Assembly: GCA_021807645.1 (NCBI GenBank)
Contig: JAKBCP010000074.1
Span: forward strand, 1-5,401
Reading direction: 5' to 3'
DNA: 5,401 nucleotides
DNA from: a bacterium
Lineage (GTDB): Bacteria > Vulcanimicrobiota > Vulcanimicrobiia > Vulcanimicrobiales > Vulcanimicrobiaceae
The notes beneath the pieces are model-generated. The model had not been told where the DNA came from. It saw nothing but the letters and a program-made list of their open reading frames with translations, and ran no database searches. This document shows, one piece after another, positions 400-1,706 of the stretch. The position numbers and the translations under genes are program-made. Every line of letters begins with the position of its first letter. The first letter of the stretch is position 1.

Positions 400-1206
400 A
401 TGCACTCGAAGCGCGTAGCGATGCGCACCCCGACGATTCTCCTCACCAACGATGACGGCGTCGCTTCCCCCGGCCTTCACGCGCTCGCGCGCGAGCTCGC
501 CGAACTCGCACGCGTCGTCGTCGTCGCACCCGACGGTAACCGAAGCGGCGTGAGCCATGCGATTACCACCGGCGACTCGGTCGGGGTGACGCCCTACGAG
601 GGCATCGCAGGCATACGCGCCTATGCCTGTACCGGGACGCCGGCCGACTGCGCCGTGATCGGCATCGGAGAGCTCTGCGAGACCCGTCCGGATATCGTCA
701 TCAGCGGCATTAACGACGGGCCCAACCTCGCCGACGACGTCAACTATTCCGGCACGGTCGCCGGCGCCGTCGAAGCCGTTCTGCTCGGCGTCCGCGCGCT
801 CGCCGTTTCGCTGGCGAGCGACCCCGACGACCGGTCGATGGCTCGTCGCTGGGAGAGTGCCGCCGCGCAAGCGCGCGCGATTCTTCCGCACGCTCTCGCC
901 GAGCTGCCGCCGGAGCGCTACTGGAACGTGAACGTTCCGAACCTCCCGCCCGAGCGATTGCTCGGGCACCGCTTTACCTCGCTTGGGCGCAAACGCTACG
1001 GTGAAGCGATCTCCCGGATCGACGAGCGCCGCGACGCTCGCTACTATCGCGTGTGGAATCTGCCCGGGCGGAGCGACAGCGAGGACCCCGATAGCGATAT
1101 CGGTGCGGTCATGCTCGGATACGTCAGCATCACGCCGATCGCCATCGACCGGACCGACCGCGACGAGCTCAACCGTTTGCGGCTTTCATCGGTTTTAGGA
1201 GCATGA
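400..1206 (+). CDS. surE: 5'/3'-nucleotidase SurE (survival protein E)
   Basis: SurE is a metal-dependent cytoplasmic phosphatase that removes phosphate from nucleoside 5'- and 3'-monophosphates and is linked to stationary-phase and stress survival. The hallmark ILLTNDDG motif opens the protein. It is followed by VVAPDGNRSGVSHA and by SGINDGPNLADDVNYSGTV. Numbered from the ATG at 421, the expected metal ligands are D11, D12, S42 and N98, all present. The protein is 261 residues from ATG 421 or 268 from ATG 400, normal for SurE. I list ATG 400 because AGGGG at 390-394 sits 5 nt before it. ATG 421 gives a more canonical N-terminus (MRTPTILLTNDDG) but has only a weak purine stretch upstream. The open frame extends to 181, but that part is Arg/Ala-rich and antisense to the transporter, so it is not counted. 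The TGA stop overlaps the ATG of the next gene (ATGA), implying translational coupling. Confidence 0.95.
   Translation: MHSKRVAMRTPTILLTNDDGVASPGLHALARELAELARVVVVAPDGNRSGVSHAITTGDSVGVTPYEGIAGIRAYACTGTPADCAVIGIGELCETRPDIVISGINDGPNLADDVNYSGTVAGAVEAVLLGVRALAVSLASDPDDRSMARRWESAAAQARAILPHALAELPPERYWNVNVPNLPPERLLGHRFTSLGRKRYGEAISRIDERRDARYYRVWNLPGRSDSEDPDSDIGAVMLGYVSITPIAIDRTDRDELNRLRLSSVLGA
1197..1201 (+). promoter_or_regulatory. Shine-Dalgarno-like AGGAG at the surE/Prx-like junction
   Basis: AGGAG is the last purine block of surE and ends one base before the ATG at 1203. That spacing is too short for ordinary initiation. It may instead hold the ribosome that has just terminated at the overlapping surE TGA (1204-1206) so that it restarts on the ATG. 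Confidence 0.35.
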
Positions 1207-1706
1207 AGCGATATTTCACTCCCGGCGATCCGGCGCCGCTCGAGCTCTTCCCGCAGCCGATCGAGCTACCGGCGCTGGTCATTTGGCCGCGACACACCGG
1301 TTGAACGTTCTTCGGCGAACCGCTCGCGCAGTTGCGTGAGTCCGAAAAAATCCACCCCGACGAGCGCGTCTATATCGTCGTCGCAGCCGATGAGGCGACG
1401 ACGCAATCGCTCTGCACTCCCTACGGTGTCGCCGACGCATGCATCGCCGACCCGGATCGGCGCACGCATCGCGCCGCGCGTCTGCGTCCGGCTTCGTTGC
1501 TCTCGTTTTTCTCCCGCGAACTGCTGAAGCGCGCGCGCGAAAATCACCGTGCCGGTTTTCGGCAGAACTGGGCGAAATCGCGGCTCGACGATCTGGGACG
1601 AGTCCCCGGCGCGATGCGCATCGATGCCCGCGGCAACGTCGCCTGGCTCTACCGCGGAACACACGCGGGCGATCTTCCGCCGCTCGAGGAGTTGCTCGCT
1701 CGCTAA
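1203..1706 (+). CDS. Probable selenoprotein: peroxiredoxin-like (AhpC/TSA_2) protein with in-frame TGA as Sec34
   Basis: This is a thioredoxin-fold, thiol/selenol redox protein of the peroxiredoxin-like AhpC/TSA_2 type, related to the SelU/SelL (Prx-like2) group. The frame starts at the ATG overlapping the surE stop and would stop at TGA 1302-1304. It then continues intact for another 134 sense codons to TAA. Read through, it is 167 residues. It has GDPAPLELF near the start, a strand PALVIWPRHTG, the TGA at residue 34, then TFFGEPLAQLRE. Further on are a strand VYIVVAA (56-62), ADPDRR (82-87), and LGRVPGAMRIDARGNVAWLY followed by HAGDLPPLEELL. Family members usually read RHxGCxFCRE here, so the TGA sits on the redox cysteine and the second cysteine is Phe37. 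C71 and C80 remain as possible resolving thiols. A SECIS-like hairpin follows the TGA. Alternatives are a recent nonsense mutation or a TGC/TGT-to-TGA sequence error. The oxidant and reductant are unknown, and no selA, selB or selC lies in the window. Confidence 0.78.
1302..1304 (+). other. In-frame TGA, predicted selenocysteine codon (Sec34)
   Basis: The TGA follows RHTG and precedes TFFGE, exactly matching the redox-active cysteine of the RHxGCxFCRE motif in peroxiredoxin-like proteins. It is the only stop between 1203 and 1706 in this frame, and family similarity is continuous on both sides. A stop at this one functional position is far more easily explained by selenocysteine than by random decay, although TGA differs from either Cys codon by a single base. 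Confidence 0.75.
1311..1346 (+). promoter_or_regulatory. Candidate bacterial SECIS hairpin
   Basis: The mRNA after the TGA can fold into a two-part stem-loop. The outer stem is TTCGG (1311-1315) with CCGAA (1342-1346). A six-base bulge (1316-1321) follows. The inner stem is a G-U pair (1322/1341) plus seven pairs between CTCGCGC (1323-1329) and GCGTGAG (1334-1340), including one G-U. The apical loop is AGTT (1330-1333). The loop begins 26 nt after the TGA and has G as its second base. Both features match published criteria for bacterial SECIS elements, namely a loop roughly 16-37 nt downstream and a G in the first two loop positions. The element would recruit SelB carrying Sec-tRNA. It lies inside the coding sequence, as bacterial SECIS elements do. 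Confidence 0.7.

Follow-up and report, generated by a model that had tools for sequence, protein, structure and literature searches.

The window analyzed here is one entire contig (C57, 5401 bases; GenBank JAKBCP010000074.1) from the draft genome of a bacterium of the family Vulcanimicrobiaceae (287 contigs totaling 1.35 Mb; completeness 61.6%). At 1203–1706 it carries a gene for a peroxiredoxin-like protein that we predict to be a selenoprotein; that is, the ribosome very probably inserts selenocysteine (Sec) at the in-frame UGA at 1302–1304, which would give a protein of 167 residues with Sec34. The prediction draws on UGA at the same codon in 22 of the 23 copies of the gene that we found, on conservation to both sides of it, on a hairpin behind it that is frozen at synonymous sites, and on the presence in this genome of genes for SelA, SelB, SelD and tRNA-Sec. 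A sequence-only reading of the window had proposed a selenoprotein with Sec34, and the comparative evidence below bears this out.

Recurrence of the internal TGA across the phylum

Translated through the TGA, the frame runs on the plus strand (as do all features of the window described here) from 1203 to the TAA at 1704–1706, with TGA 1302–1304 (codon 34) as its sole interruption, just as the sequence-only reading had it. The gene model draws on this translation, 23 aligned copies and an AlphaFold2 model. A read-through search with the 167-residue protein as query, covering 149 genomes of the phylum, placed homologous copies at 23 places in 22 genomes. Exactly one internal stop, always TGA, is present in 22 of these copies and none in the remaining one. 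All 22 TGA codons, here taken as putative Sec codons, align at a single column (RHxG-U-xFF); besides the window's own, this makes TGA at codon 34 in 21 copies from 20 other genomes. The lone Cys copy (L033, in genome G127) has TGC at the Sec column. Identity to the window protein among the other copies ranges from 98% down to 40%. Relatives had been expected to show either Cys or an in-frame TGA at this column if the prediction was sound, and scattered stops or frameshifts if it was not; no extra stop or frameshift occurs in any of the 23 copies, and other full-length relatives carry Cys (P0012 and P0014) or, in two database proteins, Ser. The gene's own terminator is TGA in 4 of the 23 copies, so that the same codon would be read two ways inside one gene.

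Related records that are named to phylum carry the title Candidatus Eremiobacterota, bar one. A scan of genome contigs with two peptide patterns, extending outside the phylum, gave 20 loci, by title 11 of Eremiobacterota, one of WPS-2, seven of a 'bacterium' and one of Rhodospirillales. The last (L051, CAJCIN010000307.1) is a copy of the Eremiobacterota type and its title is probably wrong. A 31-row tree, with long branches and open forks, did not settle whether the change ran from Sec to Cys or from Cys to Sec.

The two Ser-bearing database proteins, P0133 and P0134, read RHFGS at the Sec position. P0134 also lacks Cys71 and Cys80, which hints at a lost redox function.

Selection and probable translation through the UGA

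Among the 10 copies of the window's genus, compared in all pairs, the ratio of nonsynonymous to synonymous differences per site (pN/pS) is 0.28 for codons 2–33 and 0.27 for codons 47–167; purifying selection thus acts on both sides of the UGA. Codons 35–43 lie between the UGA and the TTG at 1332–1334 from which the database proteins start. If translation terminated at the UGA and restarted at the TTG, they would be untranslated and free to change, but in the genus they show synonymous changes only (pN 0, pS 0.32). This absence of amino-acid change amid synonymous change makes it very likely that the UGA is read through.

Before the frame stands surE (421–1206; 195.3 bits to Pfam SurE), whose stop TGA at 1204–1206 overlaps the ATG at 1203–1205 (ATGA). 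The overlap is kept in all 10 copies of the genus, which supports the start at ATG 1203 and means that TGA serves as a normal stop too.

A frozen SECIS-like hairpin after the UGA

Behind the UGA, at 1322–1341, the window has a hairpin resembling a bacterial selenocysteine insertion sequence (SECIS), delineated from the alignment of the 22 Sec copies, the SECIS rules and frozen synonymous sites. Its stem of 8 bp (1322–1329 with 1334–1341) closes a 4-nt apical loop, AGUU (1330–1333), 25 nt after the UGA, and its minimum free energy (MFE) is –12.1 kcal/mol in the window. The bacterial SECIS model as set out in a 2026 review (PMC13188914) has a loop of 3–9 nt with G in its first two positions, a stem of 4–16 bp, a distance of 16–37 nt from the UGA and an MFE of at most –7.5 kcal/mol; the window hairpin agrees with every one of these rules. 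So do 21 of the 22 Sec copies when an uninterrupted stem is required, and the Cys copy, which has no hairpin, fails.

Conservation is the stronger argument for the hairpin than its shape. Loop and spacing are identical in all 22 Sec copies. Leu44 is encoded by TTG in all 22, though TTG makes up just 49 of the 362 Leu codons across the 23 genes (the Cys copy has CTG here), and Leu41 (CTC), Gln43 (CAG) and Glu46 (GAG) are likewise each written with one codon throughout the Sec copies. Among the 50 conserved degenerate columns of the alignment, eight use a single codon, and seven of those eight lie within codons 33–46 (7 of 12 columns there vs. 1 of 38 elsewhere, Fisher P = 6e–5, a guide only, since relatedness among the copies makes the columns non-independent). 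Of the six hairpin codons all but Arg45 are frozen; Arg45 alternates between CGC and CGT, and the base pair involving it stays G-C, G-U or A-U in 21 of the 22. Codons 41–46 have a pS of 0.13 within the genus, vs. about 0.5 elsewhere. The hairpin at 1322–1341 is likely, as a predicted SECIS, to direct Sec insertion, with SelB presumably recognizing the AGUU loop.

Selenocysteine machinery

The sequence-only reading had called for a search of the source genome for selA, selB, selC and selD, and despite the genome's incompleteness all four components were found. SelA (472.6 bits) and SelB (296.7 bits) are adjacent on C155, tRNA-Sec is on C58 (68 bits, anticodon TCA, that is, UCA in RNA), and SelD is at L085 (G000:C29:1048-1965, minus strand, 371.4 bits). 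This SelD is itself of the Sec type, with an in-frame TGA in SSCAG-U-ASKL; the hairpin that follows its UGA shares CTCGCGCAG with the window hairpin, and its loop, GUU, is 33 nt away from that codon. The frozen window hairpin, together with its counterpart in this genome's selD, is a starting point for tracing the Sec signal used by Eremiobacterota. A TGA noticed inside SelA of another genome (G134) proved to be merely that gene's terminal stop, overlapping selB.

Several results weigh against Sec insertion directed by this hairpin, or lend it less than they seem to. One Sec copy, L028, fails the SECIS rules through a stem mismatch. The same rules are passed by 372 of the 3208 other codon positions of the 23 genes, and by 224 of the 2748 positions more than 10 codons away from codon 34, so that the shape of the hairpin by itself is little proof. 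Covariation in the stem was not significant (one compensatory change, with at least as many in 211 of 500 shuffles), which is no surprise in a stem that hardly varies. Finally, SelA scores above cut-off in 121 of the 149 genomes, including all 22 with the selenoprotein gene, and the gene occurs in none of the 28 others (P = 0.015); this association supports the Sec reading weakly, most genomes having SelA and many being incomplete. A search of the 149 genomes for the 18-nt hairpin string with up to two mismatches was uninformative, because GC-rich genomes such as these contain many matches, and a reversed control matched in most of them.

Other readings of the interrupted frame

The interruption might instead mark a dying gene, with the TGA a true nonsense codon, or an error of sequencing or assembly. 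Standard annotation does see a broken frame, and the draft genome is incomplete, but an error would not recur in 20 other genomes, and a decaying gene sits badly with 23 copies free of further lesions and under purifying selection on both sides of the codon; we regard this explanation as scarcely credible. It is hardly more plausible that UGA is decoded here as some other amino acid (e.g., Trp or Gly) through a changed code or a suppressor tRNA. Read-through of the UGA taken alone would be equally compatible with such decoding, but TGA ends surE in 10 of 10 genus copies and the selenoprotein gene itself in the four copies mentioned, full-length homologs have Cys (Ser in two) at the site and never Trp or Gly, and the genome holds a complete Sec machinery.

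Somewhat more weight, yet still very little, can be given to the reading in which the real gene starts at TTG 1332 and encodes 124 residues, leaving the upstream part as a separate short frame or noise. It matches the database entries, and TTG is possible as a start codon. Against it stand the purifying selection on codons 2–33, the unchanging residues 35–43 in the genus, and the Cys copy L033 and Cys proteins P0012 and P0014, all continuous through that point. The TTG moreover is among the codons frozen by the hairpin, and a protein without residues 1–43 would, in the AlphaFold2 model, lose its first core strand along with the active site.

Active site, fold and a candidate resolving Cys

The AlphaFold2 model of the window protein (mean predicted local distance difference test score, pLDDT, 89.5) has a peroxiredoxin fold, matching solved peroxiredoxins over most of its length. 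The sequence-only reading had assigned the protein to the peroxiredoxin-like AhpC/TSA_2 group, with TGA in place of the first Cys of a motif RHxGCxFCRE. The position of the TGA was borne out, but the window's active site is RHTGUTFFGE, in which the second Cys of that motif is absent (UxxF, not UxxC). Against Pfam PF13911 (AhpC-TSA_2) the protein scores 19 bits, vs. a curated cut-off of 27. UxxF holds for all 22 Sec copies, residue 37 being Phe in 22 of the 23, with Tyr in the Cys copy. The sequence leading to Sec is WPRHTGU in the window's genus and W(L/V)RHVGU in other Sec copies.

Sec34 is likely the redox residue, a nucleophile that would react with peroxide or a disulfide. Since the usual second Cys at +3 is Phe, the candidate for resolving it is Cys80 (TGC, 1440–1442), the only other Cys that is invariant in all 23 copies. 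It is also present in 118 of the 120 database homologs listed (the best 120 of 316, assessed partly by inspection), the exceptions being P0014 (Phe) and P0047 (Ser). Oxidized Sec34 might then be resolved by Cys80 as a selenylsulfide, which a thiol system such as thioredoxin would reduce. We hold this step only tentatively, at rather less than even odds.

A somewhat better case can be made, at about an even chance, that Sec insertion is correct while Cys80 is structural only, the protein acting as a one-Sec enzyme with glutathione-like thiols or thioredoxin as its direct reductants. In the model a short strand starts at Cys80 (E80-82), P0133 retains Cys80 with Ser at residue 34, and P0014 has Cys34 with Cys80 lost, all of which count against a resolving role; so does the Cys that stands two residues further along in the UxxC relatives from genomes G135 and G138, in which Cys80 is missing. 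In favor of the resolving role are the retention of Cys80 in every copy and the difference at this position in relatives with a Cys at +3, namely Leu in human PRXL2B and, in an alignment by eye, Leu and Thr in G135 and G138 (few cases in all). These proteins form a natural series (UxxF with Cys80, UxxC without Cys80, and Cys or Ser homologs) in which the resolution of Sec in PRX_like2 is directly testable. Taken as a whole, the notion of an Eremiobacterota selenoprotein subfamily with a relocated resolving residue (Sec34 with the distant Cys80, not +3) and frozen-hairpin decoding, its listed members nearly all fragments without an active site, is one we put forward as doubtful still, a shade more so than the Cys80 step itself.

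Relation to known families

Of the 23 orthologous places, 13 score above the AhpC-TSA_2 cut-off that the window protein misses, with a maximum of 54.9 bits; all 13 lie outside the window's genus. The best curated family match is NCBIfam NF040769 (SelL_rel_redox), to which residues 23–166 align at profile positions 26–171 of 173 with 64.4 bits, vs. a cut-off of 120; none of the 149 genomes reaches that cut-off, the best score being 89.7 bits. SelL is a UxxU protein, unlike the UxxF family described here. Typical Sec peroxiredoxins (PF00578) have the motif PxxxTxxU (PMC13188914), which differs from both forms of the sequence leading to Sec given above.

Searching the Protein Data Bank (PDB) with phmmer and the window protein alone gave chance matches only; a profile search reached human PRXL2B at an E-value of 0.0044. 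That enzyme (prostamide/prostaglandin F synthase, PDB 9us9 and 9usa) differs in having CxxC and Leu at the Cys80 position, and is 16% identical in structural alignment. Another lineage of the same phylum has PRX_like2 proteins of the Sec type, L095 (G135:C44:29285-29725) and L099 (G138:C250:1720-2139). Like the window gene they have an in-frame TGA, at RHFG-U; unlike it they retain the second Cys (UIFC), and an alignment by eye puts Leu or Thr where Cys80 would be, followed two residues later by a Cys. On the tree they are distant.

The 2026 review counts 119 prokaryotic selenoprotein families or subfamilies; proteins that share a domain but differ in their Sec motif are placed there in separate subfamilies (PMC13188914). 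Its Table 1 includes a predicted bacterial Sec-containing 'Peroxiredoxin-like family protein (AhpC/TSA family protein)' (cd02970, UxxS, MDX2448127.1), which by its description there resembles the window protein in broad domain type (PRX_like2/AhpC-TSA) and in having a single Sec. The two are set apart by UxxS, as the table entry gives it, vs. UxxF. The main text of the review contains neither UxxF nor any word beginning with Eremio-. Measured against that table and main text, Sec-containing PRX_like2 is already known (UxxS), and what is new here is the UxxF variant. Judged by titles and the beginnings of abstracts, we found no literature on selenoproteins or selenium in Eremiobacterota (including WPS-2 and Vulcanimicrobiota).

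Truncated database entries

The sequence-only reading had suspected that databases would hold a fragment with a false TTG start, and this is what they contain. In a first protein search all 10 matches were 124 residues long, the length expected of proteins started at the TTG at 1332–1334, which is Leu44 inside the hairpin. A profile search then scored 7997 candidates and matched 316. Among the 120 homologs listed, 118 start no earlier than codon 34, 111 of these starting at Leu44, and P0013 begins with Met exactly at the Sec position. The active site is included in just two of the 120, P0012 and P0014, which have Cys there. Because the Sec codon makes gene callers stop, a protein family of an uncultured phylum stands in databases without its active site.

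Neighboring genes and other in-frame TGA codons

An Rfam scan of 1100–1800 gave nothing but a sub-threshold malK-III match on the opposite strand. NCBIfam scans of 20 neighboring open reading frames (ORFs) at the loci of six relatives (L044, L045, L047, L048, L049 and L052) did not find a shared operon. At L044 (G061) the selenoprotein gene (5001–5528, plus strand) is convergent with selB (6572–8440) and selA (8440–9927), both on the minus strand; selB is about 1 kb and selA about 3 kb away, with one unassigned ORF of 346 aa in between.

Two other peroxiredoxin-like genes of the phylum have an in-frame TGA at U-P-F-C: L111 (G005:C2:112804-113094; FNRGFIUPFC) and L114 (G047:C183:8000-8347; YRGHWUPFC). 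With further places in the phylum that show one in-frame TGA, the unannotated selenoproteome of the phylum may be larger.
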